From: Mycoplasmatota bacterium
GTDB lineage: Bacteria > Bacillota_I > Bacilli_A > Acholeplasmatales > Acholeplasmataceae
NCBI GenBank assembly: GCA_024650045.1
Contig: JANKMU010000005.1
Span: 5,376-69,375 of the forward strand
Length of the DNA: 64,000 nucleotides
Reading direction: 5' to 3'
Position numbers and translations under genes: made by a program. Below, one piece after another: positions 3,618 to 11,895 of this stretch (positions within the stretch are counted from its first letter, which is position 1; each line of letters opens with the position of its first letter). The notes under the pieces are model-generated. The model was given only the letters and a program-made list of their open reading frames with translations, did not search any database and was not told the DNA's origin.

Positions 3618-4130
3618 TTAATCGGCAAACTCGTTATGCCAAGTATCCCATACGGCTAAGAATCGTTTTGATATTATACCCGTTAATGCTCCAGCCGGAA
3701 TACTTAAAAATAGCATGATTGGCAAATAAAATAATACTGCTACACTACCAATTACAAATATCCCAGCGGTCACTTGTCCAATGCAATGAAACACTGAACC
3801 GATAACACTGACACCTAAAACACCAAAAAAATTCGTTTTTTTAAAAAATCCCATCGCTAATATTGCAAAAATAGCTCCGCTCATGCTCATATAAAATACT
3901 GGTCCAAGTAGTTTTCCAGTTAACATTGAAACTAACAAAACCCGAAGTATAGTCAATGATGCACTATCCTTAAAGGAATATACATATAGAATAATAAGCG
4001 ATATAATATTCGAAAAACCCAGTTTAGCACCGGGAACTGGTATAATCGGTATTGCTGATTCTATTACATTCAACACAATTGCAATAGCTAAAAAATTTGC
4101 TAGCAGTGTCATTTTACGAGTTTTTCTCAT
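3618..4130 (-). CDS. Gx transporter family / heptaprenyl diphosphate synthase component I-like membrane protein
   Basis: LNVIESAIPIIPVPGAKLGFSNIISLIILY... typical of this family; linked to NusG-II and ApbE genes. Confidence 0.8.
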   Translation of the reverse strand: MRKTRKMTLLANFLAIAIVLNVIESAIPIIPVPGAKLGFSNIISLIILYVYSFKDSASLTILRVLLVSMLTGKLLGPVFYMSMSGAIFAILAMGFFKKTNFFGVLGVSVIGSVFHCIGQVTAGIFVIGSVAVLFYLPIMLFLSIPAGALTGIISKRFLAVWDTWHNEFAD

Positions 4131-4136
4131 CGATGT

Positions 4137-4613
4137 TTAAACAGTGAAGTCTTCATCATTTGTTTCAAATTCAATACGAACTCTGTTAGGTAAACAAATA
4201 AGTGGCCAACCTGTTGACTCTCCTTCTCTACTACATATATTATTAGGACTTTGTTCTTCTATAACTTGAACACTTTTTCTTCCATAATCATATTTAATCA
4301 CTACTTCTTGGCGAATACCATTTACTGTGTAATCTCCTAATATAGTTATTGTGTATTCTTGCTCATTAATGATGGGGTAAATGGAATCATATCCATCGGG
4401 TACACTTTGATTATAATTTTTTATTGTTCTATAGTTAATAAAATCAATGGTAACAATGGGCTCGTTAGAAGATCCATAATAAACATGAGCTAATGATGCA
4501 TCATCACTAAATGCTAGTAATCTAAACGCAATAAAAATACCACCCATTAAAACAAACAAGAGTGAAACTAACAAGATATCTCTTTTGCTTTGAGTTTTAT
4601 TTTTAACATTCAT
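4137..4613 (-). CDS. NusG domain II-containing membrane-anchored protein
   Basis: N-terminal TM then CSREGESTGWPLICLPNRVRIEFE, typical of secreted NusG-II proteins near Rnf/ApbE. Confidence 0.75.
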   Translation of the reverse strand: MNVKNKTQSKRDILLVSLLFVLMGGIFIAFRLLAFSDDASLAHVYYGSSNEPIVTIDFINYRTIKNYNQSVPDGYDSIYPIINEQEYTITILGDYTVNGIRQEVVIKYDYGRKSVQVIEEQSPNNICSREGESTGWPLICLPNRVRIEFETNDEDFTV

Positions 4614-4615
4614 AA

Positions 4616-5710
4616 TTATCGTTCCTCAAACTCAGTTGTATTAAGATATGTATCAATTGTTCCATCATAATTAAAGACAATTATTTCAATTCCCAAATCT
4701 TCTTGATGTTCATTCATCCACGCAGTAAAAATATTTGGAGCCATCGAAAAAAATGCTGTTGATAAAGCGTCTAATGCTCCTGCATCATCTCCAATAACTG
4801 TTATTGTATGATAATAATGTTCTGGCATTTTTGTTAATGGTGACACAATATGATGATATCTAAGTCCGTTGTAAAGTGCATATTGCTCATAATTTCCACT
4901 TGTTGTGATTGAAACATCTGCAACATATATCATGCCATAAGTGCGATTATCAGATCCGGTTCTAACAGGATTTGCCAATGATGTGTGGAAAAATCCTGTT
5001 TCTCGATTCATATTTTTTCCTACAGATATTGAACTACTTCCCGCACTGATAGAAAAATATATAGCATCATTGTCTCGAAGATAATCATAAACACGTTGTG
5101 TAGCATACCCCTTCGACAATGCTCCTAAATCTATTTTGACATGACTACTCTTAATTTCAACATAATATTTACCGTTATTTTCAGTTAATTCATATGGATT
5201 TTCAACAACTTCAATTGCTTCTAAAGTTTCTTCAATAGACTCAAACACTTGCTCAGGAATCTCTTCAAAAAGATATCCCGACGCTTCATCTAATATAACA
5301 TCTTTCCAAACATCAACTATTTTACCAATAGAGACATCAAAATAACCCTCAGTTAACTCCTTGAGTCTATTAGCTTCTTCAAGTAATTCAAAAAGTTCAT
5401 AGTCTATCTCTATAACTTCATTTAAAGTTTGATTAATTGAATAGATGTTTTCTAGAAACTCAGAATCTTCTTTAAGTGGTTCATAACTTGTACTAAGTTC
5501 GTGATATGTGTAATATATTTGCGATATATCATTCATGTATTCGTCTGCTTGATTTTGACTGTCAGCAAACACACTAACACTGATATAAGTATCCATATAG
5601 TCAAAAAAACTGAATGTATATATATCAGCTTTTTTACATGAAGTCATAAACATTATATTTAAAATTAAAATTGTAATAATTGCTATTTTTCTCATTCTAA
5701 ACCTCAACAT
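4616..5710 (-). CDS. apbE: FAD:protein FMN transferase (ApbE family lipoprotein)
   Basis: Lipobox FMTSC; DLGALSKGYATQRVYDYL, SAGSSSISVG, YHHIVSPLTKMP, DDAGALDALSTAFFSM. Confidence 0.93.
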   Translation of the reverse strand: MLRFRMRKIAIITILILNIMFMTSCKKADIYTFSFFDYMDTYISVSVFADSQNQADEYMNDISQIYYTYHELSTSYEPLKEDSEFLENIYSINQTLNEVIEIDYELFELLEEANRLKELTEGYFDVSIGKIVDVWKDVILDEASGYLFEEIPEQVFESIEETLEAIEVVENPYELTENNGKYYVEIKSSHVKIDLGALSKGYATQRVYDYLRDNDAIYFSISAGSSSISVGKNMNRETGFFHTSLANPVRTGSDNRTYGMIYVADVSITTSGNYEQYALYNGLRYHHIVSPLTKMPEHYYHTITVIGDDAGALDALSTAFFSMAPNIFTAWMNEHQEDLGIEIIVFNYDGTIDTYLNTTEFEER

Positions 5711-5750: not shown

Positions 5751-5767
5751 AGGACATATTATGTCCT
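5751..5767 (-). terminator. Hairpin at the stop codon of the short rnfB
   Basis: AGGACAT-aat-ATGTCCT followed by TTTTCTTT on minus strand. Confidence 0.55.
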
Positions 5768-6086
5768 ATAACTTTAAATCAATTATAGATCCATCTGGAT
5801 TTGGATGGTCCTTTAAATACTCTAATATCGGGTTATAGTGCTTATCTAATTTTCCTGGTTTGCAGCGAGAAACATTTTTTACTTCTCCATTTACAATACC
5901 AACAGCAAATGCACGACATCCAGGTGTTCCACAAGCTCCACAATTATAGTTAGGTAATAACTTTTCTATATCATCAATTCTTGGATCTTCTTTAACAGTT
6001 AAGTATTGGTTTGCTAAAGATAGAACCACACCTAAAACAGCTCCGATAACTCCCAGCACAATGAAGGGATATATTGCTTGCATCAT
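5766..6086 (-). CDS. rnfB: Short RnfB-like protein (N-terminal TM + single 4Fe-4S domain; no ferredoxin domains)
   Basis: N-terminal TM, YNCGACGTPGCRAFAVGIVNGEVKNVSRCKPG; ends at 106 aa. Confidence 0.85.
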   Translation of the reverse strand: MMQAIYPFIVLGVIGAVLGVVLSLANQYLTVKEDPRIDDIEKLLPNYNCGACGTPGCRAFAVGIVNGEVKNVSRCKPGKLDKHYNPILEYLKDHPNPDGSIIDLKL

Positions 6087-6295
6087 AATTTGACCTCCTT
6101 CATAAATTCAAGTGCATCTGAAAAACCACATGATCCACCACTACCTCCACGAGAGGTACATGATTCACAAGTTTGTGCTTCAAGATAAGCTGCTCGACAA
6201 CTCTCTGGCACTTCAACTTTTTTATTTAAATACATGGTTGCGATATAAAGTCCTATAAATCCACATAATACCGCTACTAAAATCAAAAATTCCAT
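6083..6295 (-). CDS. Small single-TM four-Cys-cluster protein in Rnf operon (NqrM-like topology?)
   Basis: MEFLILVAVLCGFIGLYIATMYLNKK...SCRAAYLEAQTCESCTSRGGSGGSCGFSD; overlaps rnfB start, abuts rnfA. Confidence 0.75.
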   Translation of the reverse strand: MEFLILVAVLCGFIGLYIATMYLNKKVEVPESCRAAYLEAQTCESCTSRGGSGGSCGFSDALEFMKEVKL

Positions 6296-6867
6296 TATAT
6301 AATCCCTGCCAATCCCATAAATGCCATTGCCATTAAGCCAGCTGTCACAAATGCAACAGGAAGTCCTTTAAGTGCCTTTGGTACATTTGCAGAATCTAAA
6401 CGCATACGTATTGCTGTAAAGGTAATGATAATAAGTGCAAACCCAATACCAGAACCTAACGCAAACATCAACGCTTCTGGATAACTTTGAGGAATTGCAA
6501 TGTTTGTTAAAGCAACACCAAGTACTGCACAGTTTGTAGCAATCAATGGTAAGTAAACGCCAAGTGCTTTATATAAACTTTGACTGAATCTTTTAATAAC
6601 TAATTCTGTTAATTGCACCAATGAAGCAATAACTAATATAAATGCTATGGTATCAATAAATTTAATATCCAACGGAACTAATACATAATGGTATATCGGA
6701 AAAGTAATTAATGCTGCCAAAAATATAACAACAATAACTGCTAGACCCATACCAACAACAGATTTCATCTTTGTTGAAACTCCAAAGAACGAACAAAGAC
6801 CTAAGAATTGCATCAACACAATATTATTTACTAACATTGCAGAAATTAATATAGCAAGTAAGTTCAT
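6295..6867 (-). CDS. rnfA: Electron transport complex subunit RnfA
   Basis: NNIVLMQFLGLCSFFGVSTK...LPLIATNCAVLGVAL; RnfA/RnfE/NqrE family. Confidence 0.95.
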   Translation of the reverse strand: MNLLAILISAMLVNNIVLMQFLGLCSFFGVSTKMKSVVGMGLAVIVVIFLAALITFPIYHYVLVPLDIKFIDTIAFILVIASLVQLTELVIKRFSQSLYKALGVYLPLIATNCAVLGVALTNIAIPQSYPEALMFALGSGIGFALIIITFTAIRMRLDSANVPKALKGLPVAFVTAGLMAMAFMGLAGII

Positions 6868-7556
6868 TATTTCTTAGCTCCTTTCTTTTGGCGATAGGCA
6901 GTAATGCCAGCTAGAATAAATCCAATCACCAAAAATGCTCCGGGTGGCTGAACTAAAACAGTGAATGCATATGTATCTAAACCAGCATTTTGTAGTAATG
7001 TGTATTCAAATCCAAGTGGAAGTGATCTACCTAGTGCGATCATACCAGTTCCAAAAAATTCTCTAAAAAATCCGATGATAGAAAGTGATAATGCAAACCC
7101 AACAGCAACTCCAAAACCATCAAGTGCAGACTTACCAACAGTGTTCTTAGAAGCGAATGCTTCGGCTCTACCAAAAACAACACAGTTAACTGTAATCAAG
7201 GCAATGAATACGCCTAATTCTTGTGCTAATGCTGGAGCAAATGCATCTACCAACATCTTTAATATAGTAACTTCTGTAGCAATAATAATTACATATACTG
7301 GAATACGCACAGTATTTGGAACAACTTTTCTAATCGATGATACTGTAGTATTTGTAAACGTTAAGACAAGCATAACTAATATACCCATACCAAATGCACC
7401 TTCGAAAGTTGATGTTACCGCTAATGCTGGACATAGCCCAAGCACCATAACGAATATACCGTTTTCTTTTAAGATACCTTTAGTAAAAGTCTCCCATAAT
7501 GTCATTTCTTTTTCTTGAGCTTTTTTCTTAGCTGGAACTTTTTTAGCTTCTGTCAT
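6867..7556 (-). CDS. rnfE: Electron transport complex subunit RnfE
   Basis: GILKENGIFVMVLGLCPALAVTST...ITVNCVVFGRAEAFASKN. Confidence 0.95.
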   Translation of the reverse strand: MTEAKKVPAKKKAQEKEMTLWETFTKGILKENGIFVMVLGLCPALAVTSTFEGAFGMGILVMLVLTFTNTTVSSIRKVVPNTVRIPVYVIIIATEVTILKMLVDAFAPALAQELGVFIALITVNCVVFGRAEAFASKNTVGKSALDGFGVAVGFALSLSIIGFFREFFGTGMIALGRSLPLGFEYTLLQNAGLDTYAFTVLVQPPGAFLVIGFILAGITAYRQKKGAKK

Positions 7557-7557
7557 C

Positions 7558-8550
7558 TTAATTCACCTCACTAACGAATGCATTAAGTAAGATATCTACC
7601 AATGCTCTAGTATTTGTTACACCTGAAGTTATATCGCTATCATCATTAATGACATCTGCAAATTCACTCACCGTCAGACCTACAAATGTATTTAGGTAGT
7701 TAACAATTGTATTATATCTTGTACCTCTAGTGTGTAGGTATTCTCCTTCGGGAACTAACACACCAATGACTTCATCATTCATGTCAAATGCAAGATAAAT
7801 ACCAATACTACTAGAATTCCCATCATAATATTCACCAGATCCACTTAAATGATAAACATAACCTACTTCTTGATTTGATGCATTGGTTACTATTCTTCTA
7901 GCTTTGACATATTCTGATGCAGTAAATTCCGTATCATTAGTTAATATATAACCCTCACCATATAATACTGCATATGGATCTTCAACAATTAAATCATAAT
8001 GAATATCTATAGCTTCACGAATTAAATCTTTAATGGTTCCTGTACTATCTTTTGCTGTTGCGCCAGCAGTTGGATCTGCTGCATCATAAACCGGAATATT
8101 AGGTACTGATGTATAAGGGACACCTTGGAAATACTCATAAATATAATATTGAATACCTTTAACTGTCCAACTTGATTGAATCAATAAAATGATTTCAACA
8201 TAAACTTTATCTTCTAGATCAATACCAACTAGTAATTCCATGTATCCGTTTGTATCATTAGGACCAGTGATTCCGTAACTGTTTTTCACTTTAATATTAT
8301 ATACAGTACCTACTAGAATGCCTGATTTATTAACAGCATCTGCTCGATAATCAACTACAGCATAACTTTGTGAATTAGGTACTGAAGTAATATTTGTTTG
8401 ATTTTCCAATTCTACAACTTGATTAAATAATCTATCTTGTGGCTCTTTAGGAATTAGGTTGTTGTTGATAAATATAACACCAATCCCAATAATGAGCATA
8501 ACAACAAGGTTAATCATTAAGAGTAAATTTTCTTTTCTTATTAGTCTCAT
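7558..8550 (-). CDS. RnfG-like protein 2 with two FMN_bind-like regions
   Basis: N-terminal TM; AGATAKDSTGTIKDL (region 1) and DITSGVTNTRALVDILLNAF (region 2) flavinylation-type motifs. Confidence 0.8.
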   Translation of the reverse strand: MRLIRKENLLLMINLVVMLIIGIGVIFINNNLIPKEPQDRLFNQVVELENQTNITSVPNSQSYAVVDYRADAVNKSGILVGTVYNIKVKNSYGITGPNDTNGYMELLVGIDLEDKVYVEIILLIQSSWTVKGIQYYIYEYFQGVPYTSVPNIPVYDAADPTAGATAKDSTGTIKDLIREAIDIHYDLIVEDPYAVLYGEGYILTNDTEFTASEYVKARRIVTNASNQEVGYVYHLSGSGEYYDGNSSSIGIYLAFDMNDEVIGVLVPEGEYLHTRGTRYNTIVNYLNTFVGLTVSEFADVINDDSDITSGVTNTRALVDILLNAFVSEVN

Positions 8551-8551
8551 C

Positions 8552-9514
8552 TTAATTCACCTCATCTATTAAAGCATTTAACATGATATCTACAACTACT
8601 TTTGAATTTGTTACACCAGATGTCAAATCACCATCATCGGTTAGTGAGGTAGCAAATTCTGCAACCGTTAATCCAACAAATGAATTTAAGTAGCTTACTA
8701 TTTTATCGTATCTAATACCTTTAGTATGCAAATACTCTTCTGAAGGAACTAAAACTCCAACAACTTCATCATTCGAATTAAATGCCATGTAGATTGTGAT
8801 ACTTGCCTCTGAATCTTCATAATAAACACCACTTGCAGTTAGTGTATAAATATAGCCAATTTCACTATCTTCAAGTGTAACAATTTCTCTATTTAGTATG
8901 TTTGCTGATGGGGTAAAATCAATGTCGTCTTGAATTAAGTGACCAGCACCGTACCATACATCATATGGATCCATTGGTTCTTGGGCAGTGTTTGCATGAG
9001 CAACTGCCATATCAGCTAATAAAGCATTTACAGTATCTAAACTTCCTGTTGCACCTGTTACTATGTCACCTTCAGGTGTTAAAGCACTGAGTTGTGTTCC
9101 AATATATAAAGATAAGTTGGTTCTCGTACCTTCAAGTCCATAGGTTTGATTAAGTTCAATAAAATCAGCACCAATGATTTCCCCACTAGCATCAACACCT
9201 AATACAATTCTCATGTAACCAAATTTATTAGTTGCATATGCTACATAGATATATCCAACAATTTCCTCACTAGCGTCTTTACCAATTACAATTGAACTGA
9301 TTGAGCTAGGGTTGCCAGTTAAGTCTTGTTTATCAAATGTTACACCTTCAGGTAAAACTGCTTGGTATGCTCTATTTTCAGCTTTTTCAATATTTGATTC
9401 GATAATAGGAGCAGTGATTGCATTAACTCCACCAATAACCAATCCACAACATATAGATACAACAGTCAATACAAAAGTGTAATGGAATAGTGGTTTTTCA
9501 AATAATTTTCTCAT
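8552..9514 (-). CDS. rnfG: RnfG-like protein 1 with two FMN_bind-like regions
   Basis: N-terminal TM; EIIGADFIELNQTYGLEGT...DIVTGATGSLDTVNALL (region 1) and DLTSGVTNSKVVVDIML (region 2). Confidence 0.87.
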   Translation of the reverse strand: MRKLFEKPLFHYTFVLTVVSICCGLVIGGVNAITAPIIESNIEKAENRAYQAVLPEGVTFDKQDLTGNPSSISSIVIGKDASEEIVGYIYVAYATNKFGYMRIVLGVDASGEIIGADFIELNQTYGLEGTRTNLSLYIGTQLSALTPEGDIVTGATGSLDTVNALLADMAVAHANTAQEPMDPYDVWYGAGHLIQDDIDFTPSANILNREIVTLEDSEIGYIYTLTASGVYYEDSEASITIYMAFNSNDEVVGVLVPSEEYLHTKGIRYDKIVSYLNSFVGLTVAEFATSLTDDGDLTSGVTNSKVVVDIMLNALIDEVN

Positions 9515-10590
9515 TATGCAACACCTCCAACACCAAAGAATACAACCAAACCTAAAATAATTAGAAGTAGAACATAACTTCCAACAAATGCAGGTTTAAT
9601 TTTATCCGTTGACCACTTAGGATAATCAATAAGTGGTACAAACATATTACAGAATAATAATGCAAATGCTACCCCTTCTGGGTAAGCACCAAATAAACGG
9701 ATTAATACGACAAGTGCACCAATCATTAGACCGTAAATCCAACGACCTGGTCTTGTTACTGGTGAGGTTACTGGATCTGTTACCATAAAAACAACACCAA
9801 ATAATAAACCTCCAGATAAAACATGGAATAGTGTATACTCCATCACATGCTCTGGATACAGTTTTAATCCCACTAAAGTTATGAGAACTACAAATGTTAA
9901 AGTAGTTGAAAGCATAACTCTATAGTCGGCTGAACGTCGAATCAACAAGTAAATACCGCCAATAATGATTGCTAATGCACTGATTTCACCCATTGCTCCT
10001 GGTATATTACCCATAAACAAGTCAATTAAGGGATAACTATTTAACGCTTGAGGAAATAATAATCCTGTTCTTAAAGTCGTTAAAGCTGTTCCACCAGCAA
10101 CTAAATCAACACCAACATAAGTTCCTGAAAACATATCAGTTAATGCTAATGCAATAAAAATACGTCCCACAGCTGCAGGGTTGAAAATATTAGATCCTAA
10201 GCCTCCAAATAAAAGTTTACCAACAACGATACCAAATCCAGCACCTACAACAACGGCATAAATTGGTAATTTACTTGGAATAATCATTGCGAAAATAATC
10301 GCACTGACAGCTGGCGCTGTGATATTGTTAATTGTGTACTTCTCATATCTAGATTTTAATCTTTCAAAAAAATTTTCACTCTTATTAGGTTTATTCATCA
10401 TGCCAAAGGCAATAGCTTCCAAACCAATCATTGTTACTGACGAAACTAAAATTCTTAATGCTGAGTCCCATCCAAAGCGATAGATAGAGAAAGCAACGAC
10501 AGGAATTAACGCGATTAACACGTCAATCATCATGCGCTTTGTACTAACTTGCTTACGAATATAGGGGCTCGTTTGTTTTATAGCTTGCAT
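9514..10590 (-). CDS. rnfD: Electron transport complex subunit RnfD
   Basis: SPYIRKQVSTKRMMIDVLIALIP...NITAPAVSAIIFAMIIPSKLPIYAVVVGAGFGIVVGKLLFGGLGSNIFNPAAVGR. Confidence 0.95.
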   Translation of the reverse strand: MQAIKQTSPYIRKQVSTKRMMIDVLIALIPVVAFSIYRFGWDSALRILVSSVTMIGLEAIAFGMMNKPNKSENFFERLKSRYEKYTINNITAPAVSAIIFAMIIPSKLPIYAVVVGAGFGIVVGKLLFGGLGSNIFNPAAVGRIFIALALTDMFSGTYVGVDLVAGGTALTTLRTGLLFPQALNSYPLIDLFMGNIPGAMGEISALAIIIGGIYLLIRRSADYRVMLSTTLTFVVLITLVGLKLYPEHVMEYTLFHVLSGGLLFGVVFMVTDPVTSPVTRPGRWIYGLMIGALVVLIRLFGAYPEGVAFALLFCNMFVPLIDYPKWSTDKIKPAFVGSYVLLLIILGLVVFFGVGGVA

Positions 10591-10599
10591 ATTTTCCTC

Positions 10600-11895
10600 C
10601 TATTTGGCTAAGCGTTTGCCTAAACGCATATATTCTGTCAAATGAATCTTAGATGGGCATACATAAGAACATAGTCCACATTCGATACACTTGTTGACTT
10701 CAAGCATTTTTAAAGCATCTTTATCTTTTATTTTATAAGCATTCATAATTTGAACTGGTTGAATTTTCACAGGACATGAATAAACACAAGATGCACAATG
10801 AATACAAGGTTCTTCGTTTTGAGGCTCCTCATCCAATACAATCAAACTTGTTGTTGTATGCGTCATAACGACATCATCTTTTGTGATATTTGTTCCCATC
10901 ATTGGTCCGCCTAAAATCATAACTTTAGGTTTTCCATTATCAATATATCCACCAGCAATCTCGATAAGGTCAGTTATTAGCGTTCCAATACGAGCTCTAA
11001 AGTTTTTATTAACTATACCGTTTCCGCTAATAGTGAATAAGCGTTCTAAAACAGGTAATCTCTTTTTAACAGCTTCATGAATACTCTTTAAAGTTGAAAC
11101 ATTGAAATTTAAAACACCATATTTAGATAATAACTCGCCTTGTGGAATTTTTATTCCCAATGCATCTTTAATCATTGAAATTTCCCATCCTTGAGGATAG
11201 TAGTTACCAACGCTAACAATTTTGATGTCATATTGACTAAACTCATGGAGAGTAAATTCAAGTCTTTCTTTAATTTCCGTATATTTCTTCTTAATTGCTA
11301 TAATTCCCTTTTTGGCATTAGTAGCTTTCATAACGTAAATTAATCCTCTAATAACATCTCTTGGATCTGTCATCATAACACCATAATCTGCTATTAAATT
11401 AGGTTCGCATTCAACGCCATTAGCAATTACAACATTAATTGGATCTTCAGTTTCAAGTTTTATATATGTTGGAAAAGCACTTCCTCCTAAACCTACCAAT
11501 CCAGCATCTTTAACAATATTGACTAAATCTTCTCTTGTCAATGCATCAATTTCTTCTTCTGTTCTTTCGACAATAGTTTCGTGTAACTCATATTTTTTAT
11601 CATTCTTTACAATGAGACAATCAACTGATTTTCCACTTTGATCAATATGTTTTTCATATCCAACAACCTCACCACTAACTGTTGCATGCATTGGTTGTTC
11701 GAAAAATGCCCCTTTTCTTGTTCCAATTATCTCTCCGACTTTAACAAATTGTCCACCTCTAACACATGTTTCTCCCTCAGGACAACGTGCACTAGTTACA
11801 GGGTAATATAAATAGTCAGCATTTAAGTAATGTAATATTGGTAATGCTTTTAGTTCTTTCTTACCATCTGGAATATATTTTGTTTTTGCAATCAT
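10600..11895 (-). CDS. rnfC: Electron transport complex subunit RnfC
   Basis: GLVGLGGSAFPTYIKL; CIHCASCVYSCP and CIECGLCSYVCP 4Fe-4S motifs. Confidence 0.96.
   Translation of the reverse strand: MIAKTKYIPDGKKELKALPILHYLNADYLYYPVTSARCPEGETCVRGGQFVKVGEIIGTRKGAFFEQPMHATVSGEVVGYEKHIDQSGKSVDCLIVKNDKKYELHETIVERTEEEIDALTREDLVNIVKDAGLVGLGGSAFPTYIKLETEDPINVVIANGVECEPNLIADYGVMMTDPRDVIRGLIYVMKATNAKKGIIAIKKKYTEIKERLEFTLHEFSQYDIKIVSVGNYYPQGWEISMIKDALGIKIPQGELLSKYGVLNFNVSTLKSIHEAVKKRLPVLERLFTISGNGIVNKNFRARIGTLITDLIEIAGGYIDNGKPKVMILGGPMMGTNITKDDVVMTHTTTSLIVLDEEPQNEEPCIHCASCVYSCPVKIQPVQIMNAYKIKDKDALKMLEVNKCIECGLCSYVCPSKIHLTEYMRLGKRLAK

Follow-up and report, generated by a model that had tools for sequence, protein, structure and literature searches.

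Paired two-unit RnfG proteins in an Acholeplasmataceae rnf operon and a possible outward flavin branch

Introduction

In its canonical form, the Rnf complex conducts electrons from ferredoxin through RnfB, the RnfA/E cluster, RnfG, RnfD and RnfC to NAD (PMC12174285, PMC11889175). The locus described here raises the question of why the rnfG slot of one operon should hold two adjacent genes, how many flavin-binding units these encode, and where the electrons of any additional flavins would go. An earlier note on the window, by which we mean the whole 64,000-nucleotide stretch of contig JANKMU010000005.1 that was analyzed, had read the slot as two paralogues with two FMN_bind domains each, and proposed up to four flavin sites outside the membrane with an extended or branched electron output. 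A multi-flavin RnfG with branched output is not new as an idea, as Meheust et al. (2021, eLife; PMC8238504) already proposed multi-flavinylated RnfGs with a bifurcated output to extracytosolic acceptors. Published genome papers name simply 'the Rnf complex', and no experiment on whether the extra RnfG flavins lead out of the complex was found in the literature.

The rnf operon of the window

The source genome (1.89 Mb, 99.9% complete) carries, on the minus strand of the window, an operon in the order glyA, rnfC, rnfD, rnfG1, rnfG2, rnfE, rnfA, a 70-aa microprotein, a short rnfB, apbE, a gene for a NusG_II protein and one for an EetB-type FAD exporter (Table 1). The two adjacent paralogues had been placed correctly by the earlier note, as had the apbE gene downstream of them, which follows rnfE, rnfA and the short rnfB. 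Both rnfG genes, whose products are hereafter G1 and G2, are tightly coupled in the rnfG slot between rnfD and rnfE, with 1 base of gap or overlap at each of the rnfD/G1, G1/G2 and G2/E junctions. Sequence motifs for the NADH/FMN module and two 4Fe-4S clusters of RnfC and for the FMN-Thr of RnfD are all present, as are all four RnfA/E [2Fe-2S] cysteines, and the source genome itself encodes PFOR and hydrogenase. The operon thus shares with the canonical Rnf of A. woodii and C. tetanomorphum (PMC11889175, PMC12174285) the rnfC-D-G-E-A-B order, the four RnfA/E cysteines, the RnfD FMN-Thr and the RnfC NADH/FeS module, but differs in its doubled two-unit RnfG, an RnfB without the C-terminal cluster domain and the extra four-cysteine microprotein.

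Two further loci of the same genome encode related proteins. A second, NQR-like operon on contig C11 (nqrBCDEF by order and homology; L083:6829-10669) includes a canonical single-unit NqrC, and no NqrA was found in the source genome; NqrBCDEF is likewise recorded for Ca. Izimaplasma ZiA1. On contig C22, a 129-aa membrane protein with a single FMN_bind unit is encoded beside a flavodoxin-like gene (L084:8135-8964) and is possibly a further flavinylated electron carrier.

Table 1. Features of the rnf operon (window coordinates) and loci of relatives lacking RnfB
Feature	Position	Strand	Description
rnfC	10600..11895	-	NADH/FMN module; 8 Cys in two 4Fe-4S motifs
rnfD	9514..10590	-	FMN-Thr motif AGGTALTT retained
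rnfG1	8552..9514	-	320 aa; TM helix at the N terminus followed by two FMN_bind units
G1 unit 1, core RnfG-like	9008..9295	-	residues 74-169; Pfam PF04205; unit HMM E 4e-27; nearest to solved RnfG
G1 T156 (TGAT; VTGATGS)	9047..9049	-	candidate FMN acceptor; T/S in 65/65 first units; top-ranked conserved column
G1 unit 2	8567..8893	-	residues 208-316; missed by Pfam; AlphaFold, profile-profile, unit HMM
G1 T302 (SGVT; TSGVTNS)	8609..8611	-	candidate FMN acceptor; T/S in 94% of 52 relatives
rnfG2	7558..8550	-	330 aa; TM helix at the N terminus followed by two FMN_bind units; not matched by Pfam
G2 unit 1	8008..8355	-	residues 66-181; AlphaFold, profile-profile, unit HMM
G2 T165 (AGAT; TAGATAKDS)	8056..8058	-	candidate FMN acceptor; T/S in 44/44 relatives
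G2 unit 2	7576..7908	-	residues 215-325; AlphaFold, profile-profile, unit HMM
G2 T312 (SGVT; TSGVTNT)	7615..7617	-	candidate FMN acceptor; T/S in 97% of 38 relatives
rnfE	6867..7556	-	two RnfA/E [2Fe-2S] Cys retained: C42, C125
rnfA	6295..6867	-	two RnfA/E [2Fe-2S] Cys retained: C25, C113
70-aa microprotein, unannotated	6083..6295	-	TM helix and four-Cys motif; overlaps rnfA stop and rnfB start
short rnfB	5766..6086	-	106 aa; TM helix and single 4Fe-4S motif (PF04060)
apbE flavin transferase	4616..5710	-	PF02424 E 5e-44
NusG_II-domain protein	4137..4613	-	adjoins eetB; putative EetA by synteny only (PMC9973259)
EetB-type FAD exporter subunit	3618..4130	-	PF07456; PMC9973259
RnfB-less loci without RnfA/E Cys	L061, L063, L065, L067, L101-L105, L107, L108, L114		genomes without PFOR and [FeFe] hydrogenase

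Two FMN_bind units in each RnfG protein

G1 and G2 align as paralogues from end to end (36% identity, E 1e-55, far above chance). The search with Pfam FMN_bind (PF04205) that the earlier note had suggested for both proteins recovers only residues 100-168 of G1 (E 1.9e-5), leaving both second units unmatched and G2 without any Pfam match even at E 10, while the NCBIfam rnfG model (TIGR01947, cutoff 102 bits) scores G1 below its cutoff, at 37.4 bits, and G2 not at all. A domain count from Pfam and NCBIfam alone was rejected as too insensitive. For a profile-profile test, the G1/G2 alignment was split into halves and each half was compared with canonical single-domain RnfG/NqrC profiles, yielding E values of 4e-13 (G1-N), 3e-11 (G2-N), 2e-8 (G1-C) and 8e-11 (G2-C), single-template hhalign values that are meaningful only against the control, in which the C-half profile scored E 0.1 to 0.9 with the profiles of RnfA, B, C, D and E. 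In the matches of the C-terminal halves to the canonical profiles, SGVT lies opposite SGAT; these halves also match G1-N in profile-profile comparison.

The AlphaFold models (mean pLDDT 85 for G1 and 81 for G2) display an identical five-strand/helix order twice per protein rather than once, with the GAT/GVT motif immediately ahead of each unit's last helix; the placement of the units relative to each other is uncertain in both models (pTM about 0.5). Foldseek matches the G1 model to the RnfG of C. tetanomorphum (7zc6_G, E 2.4e-8) and also to those of A. woodii and A. vinelandii, and returns no RnfG or NqrC for the G2 model, whose best matches are meaningless. Both proteins therefore have the N-terminal TM helix and ensuing FMN_bind fold of an RnfG, but with two FMN_bind domains each instead of the single one. 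With profile-profile comparison, unit HMM and structural models in agreement, the doubled FMN_bind architecture put forward in the earlier note is confirmed as a predicted fold. For comparison, published FMN-bind2 domains span about 160 aa, form an extended sheet and are paired two by two (PMC10979944).

Four candidate flavin sites

All four motifs quoted in the earlier note are present in the two proteins, and their threonines (G1 T156 and T302, G2 T165 and T312) are each kept across orthologues (94-100% T/S), not just one of them. Among about 100 columns, the acceptor position ranks first in conservation in the first units of both G1 and G2, eighth in G1 unit 2 and seventh in G2 unit 2, and dN/dS values of 0.12-0.15 between the window and its closest relative indicate purifying selection in all four units. 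Departures from S/TGAT consist of the GVT of the second units and an insertion in the G2 unit 1 site. Together, these data support four candidate FMN-Thr sites that would lie outside the membrane. In some relatives APT or KPT replaces S/TGAT with the Thr kept, namely in G2 unit 1 of L063 and in G1 unit 1 and G2 unit 1 of L067.

One could argue that G1 unit 1 alone transfers electrons and that the other units are structural or docking modules in which the fold has been kept and the flavin has not. Degenerate sites do occur in some second units (L054 G1, L061 G1, L069) and in several units of giant RnfGs, and unit number varies freely inside one genus; nevertheless, an acceptor Thr/Ser that places between first and tenth in conservation among about 100 columns in every unit class, in most relatives, is hard to explain without flavinylation, and we consider this reading unlikely. 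A role for the additional units as flavin carriers is also in keeping with the presence of apbE and eetB within the operon, which we count in favor of the flavin-loading model: multi-FMN proteins have been produced and fully loaded by ApbE (PMC10339131), and EetB (PF07456), often encoded beside rnf, exports FAD for ApbE systems (PMC9973259).

Unit number and history in the order

Across the order, the number of FMN_bind units that the unit HMM detects in the RnfG slot ranges from 1 to about 10. Slots with a single unit occur in family f3 and in several genomes from the window's genus; elsewhere the count is three (as 2+1 or 1+2), four (2+2), or five to six. Since the slot holds 1, 3 or 4 units within the window's own genus, those beyond G1 unit 1 are accessory. 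At the upper extreme, one f3 genus encodes giant single RnfGs of 1353-1434 aa with ~10 units, several with degenerate sites (L070:6897-10958, L071:3390-7694, L072:6696-11000).

In a unit tree built from short sequences, with many forks unresolved, G1 and G2 first units form separate old lineages, whereas G1 and G2 second units repeatedly cluster by genome or by group of close relatives (the window with L034; L035; L047/L110; L048; L050; L063). This pattern points to many rounds of copying or conversion of second units between the two genes, and such exchange accounts for the near-identical C-terminal segments that the earlier note had rightly pointed out. A simple recent gene duplication as the source of that likeness was rejected, given old first units and exchanged second units in the tree.

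The same tree bears on whether G1 and G2 are alternative RnfGs that take turns at a single site, so that the complex would exist in two versions, both with ordinary ferredoxin:NAD function. Isoforms are a frequent outcome of tandem duplication, and the two genes do share the rnfG slot in tight coupling and each encode a TM anchor. Yet G2 unit 1 belongs to a distinct old lineage, single-gene slots that could be fully read carry a G1-type first unit, and both G genes are kept in the RnfB-less relatives described below, where canonical ferredoxin:NAD chemistry is impossible, all of which makes interchangeable isoforms very unlikely.

We therefore regard the double-G layout as a lineage variant of the known multi-flavinylated RnfG. 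It resembles the systems of Meheust et al. (PMC8238504) in having, by unit HMM, more than one FMN-binding domain in an RnfG of the rnf cluster, and differs from them in distributing these over two adjacent double-unit genes. Because Pfam FMN_bind does not detect the second units, a survey relying on Pfam would register one unit at most.

A short RnfB and a four-cysteine microprotein

The RnfBs described structurally have an extra C-terminal domain with two to seven clusters, which receives ferredoxin (PMC12174285). This ferredoxin-docking polyferredoxin domain is absent from the RnfB of the window, which matches TIGR01944 at positions 5-78 of 190 only. RnfB is short throughout the order and the sampled class, with open frames of roughly 95-150 aa (class search, 20 loci read).

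Between rnfA and the short rnfB, the 70-aa frame encodes in its C-terminal part the pattern SC-x9-CESC-x9-C. An equivalent is present in the readable RnfB-bearing loci of the order, of which L060 and L082 keep CxxC only, and in 15 of the 20 class loci read; its dN/dS of 0.029 denotes strong purifying selection. Searches against Pfam and NCBIfam returned no family above cutoff and a faint likeness to FeoB_associated. We tentatively suggest that the microprotein binds FeS or a metal and acts as a small partner to the short RnfB. In a 2024 genome paper, the six Rnf proteins of a family member are listed with numbering gaps, which probably fall where G2 and the microprotein frame would be expected. 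Neither a small Cys-rich Rnf subunit nor a short RnfB was found described in the open-access literature.

Relatives without RnfB and the RnfA/E cluster

Among 88 genomes of the family, rnfC is present in 51 and rnfB or an rnfB fragment in 38. One family genome, G240, matches a contig of Acholeplasma equifetale ATCC 29724 without a difference over 6 kb. Three genera combine rnfC with a lack of rnfB in every genome concerned: g3 (3/3), g11, which is Acholeplasma (8/8), and g14 (2/2), or 13 genomes in all; a further rnfB-less genome, G454, is only 67% complete. The rnfA and rnfE genes are readable in 12 of the 13, the contig of G430 stopping within rnfC, and in all 12 both RnfA and both RnfE cysteines, known as the ligands of the membrane [2Fe-2S] cluster (PMC11889175), have been replaced. 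The proteins are still recognizable as RnfA/E (PF02508 in 5 of 6 tested), and all four cysteines are kept at every RnfB-bearing locus of the order, including one with a split rnfA.

The remainder of the complex persists at the RnfB-less loci. RnfC retains its cluster cysteines and RnfD its FMN-Thr (11 of 11 inspected), apbE and eetB follow in unchanged order wherever the contig extends, and both double RnfGs are kept, their sites preserved in most units and weaker (GPT, APT) or lost in some. Neither PFOR nor [FeFe] hydrogenase was found in any of the 13 genomes, compared with 18 of 18 and 17 of 18, respectively, for the RnfB-bearing genomes examined alongside. A free tree requires two changes for the loss of RnfB, and a tree with one RnfB-less clade was not rejected (p-AU 0.505), for which reason we dropped two independent losses as a settled point; the loss of RnfB and of the cluster cysteines may be a single evolutionary event or two, and hence counts as one or two data points. 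Separately, the rnfC of genome G035 (L050 region) contains an in-frame TAA in an otherwise intact operon, consistent with a pseudogene, a sequencing error or a population variant.

With RnfB and the RnfA/E cluster gone from the canonical route, only NADH-RnfC-RnfD-RnfG would be left, and electrons reaching RnfG would have no canonical way back inside. This remaining half-path is our strongest argument for an outward role of RnfG in the family and suggests, from gene content and conserved residues, that the Rnf of Acholeplasmataceae can send electrons out of the cell. The branched output envisaged in the earlier note thus gains indirect support from relatives that have lost the ferredoxin arm and kept multi-unit RnfGs, while the general idea had been published before for multi-flavinylated RnfGs (PMC8238504).

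The same relatives invite a different reading, in which the additional flavins would not serve extracellular respiration but would be the point where a membrane NADH oxidase delivers its electrons to O2. PFOR and hydrogenase are absent from Acholeplasma, and in the 1980s a membrane NADH oxidase of A. laidlawii was reportedly characterized as a flavoprotein with iron-sulfur centers, which we count for this reading. O2 also reacts with reduced multi-FMN proteins (PMC10339131). However, multi-unit RnfGs are equally present in genomes with PFOR and hydrogenase, from apparently anaerobic relatives, and we judge a dedicated oxidase outlet quite unlikely.

Discussion

The explanation that fits best, and that we consider somewhat probable, is that G1 and G2 are two-unit outward-facing flavoproteins of which G1 unit 1 is canonical and the other three units form an outward branch. 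Its observed side comprises the double-unit build of each protein, the conservation of the sites, purifying selection on all four units and the loss of the ferredoxin arm in relatives with multi-unit RnfGs. Both proteins would be anchored in the membrane and face outward, and ApbE could load FMN on two units of each, giving four sites. G1 unit 1 would do what RnfG does in a standard complex and carry electrons between the RnfA/E cluster and the RnfD-bound FMN; the remaining three units would draw electrons from this hub, fed either by NADH via RnfC and RnfD or by ferredoxin via RnfB and RnfA/E, and would hand them, in the presumed outward direction, to an acceptor beyond the membrane. Free flavin, Fe(III), O2 or some other protein could serve as that acceptor; no acceptor partner was identified. 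As the complex of the window keeps RnfB and the RnfA/E cysteines, it may operate mostly as an ordinary Rnf.

The half-path proposed for RnfB-less Acholeplasma, from NADH to an outside FMN-binding domain, resembles that of the NQR/RNF-like unidirectional systems, which run from NAD(P)H (PMC8238504, PMC10979944). It differs from them in that RnfC and RnfD are separate, with no RnfD-NqrF fusion and with the RnfD FMN-Thr kept, and in that the RnfB-less loci retain RnfE and RnfA minus the cluster cysteines. We found no mention of relatives that lack RnfB and the RnfA/E cluster in the accessible part of PMC8238504. Na+-NQR (NqrABCDEF) has a homologous core, and its proposed origin includes the loss of rnfB (PMC4014512). 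Unlike in Na+-NQR, no nqrF or nqrA replacement is present in the RnfB-less operons, and the FeS cysteines of RnfC are retained.

In Listeria, flavin-based extracellular electron transfer draws its electrons from Ndh2 and quinone, whereas here Rnf subunits would be the source, and the operon has no PplA-like lipoprotein gene. The likeness to the Listeria system (PplA/FmnB/EetB) lies in the pairing of an ApbE-type transferase with an EetB-type FAD exporter for a flavinylated extracytosolic protein (PMC9973259). In the open-access literature we found no account of an RnfB-less, cluster-less Acholeplasma Rnf, of a class-wide short RnfB or of the four-cysteine microprotein, which is a weak sign of novelty.

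More tentatively, and with slightly less than even credence, we propose that the Acholeplasmataceae Rnf is shifting from a ferredoxin:NAD pump to a flavin wire that runs outward and is driven by NADH. Its ferredoxin arm would first have been cut to a short RnfB and the microprotein and then lost together with the RnfA/E cluster in Acholeplasma and two sister genera, leaving an RnfC-RnfD-RnfG1-RnfG2 half-complex that would be incapable of canonical ferredoxin oxidation and would have to export electrons. The short RnfB and conserved microprotein bear on electron entry into Rnf across a whole bacterial class, and the relatives without RnfB and the cluster cysteines, some of them cultivable (Acholeplasma), offer a ready-made test of the outward role.
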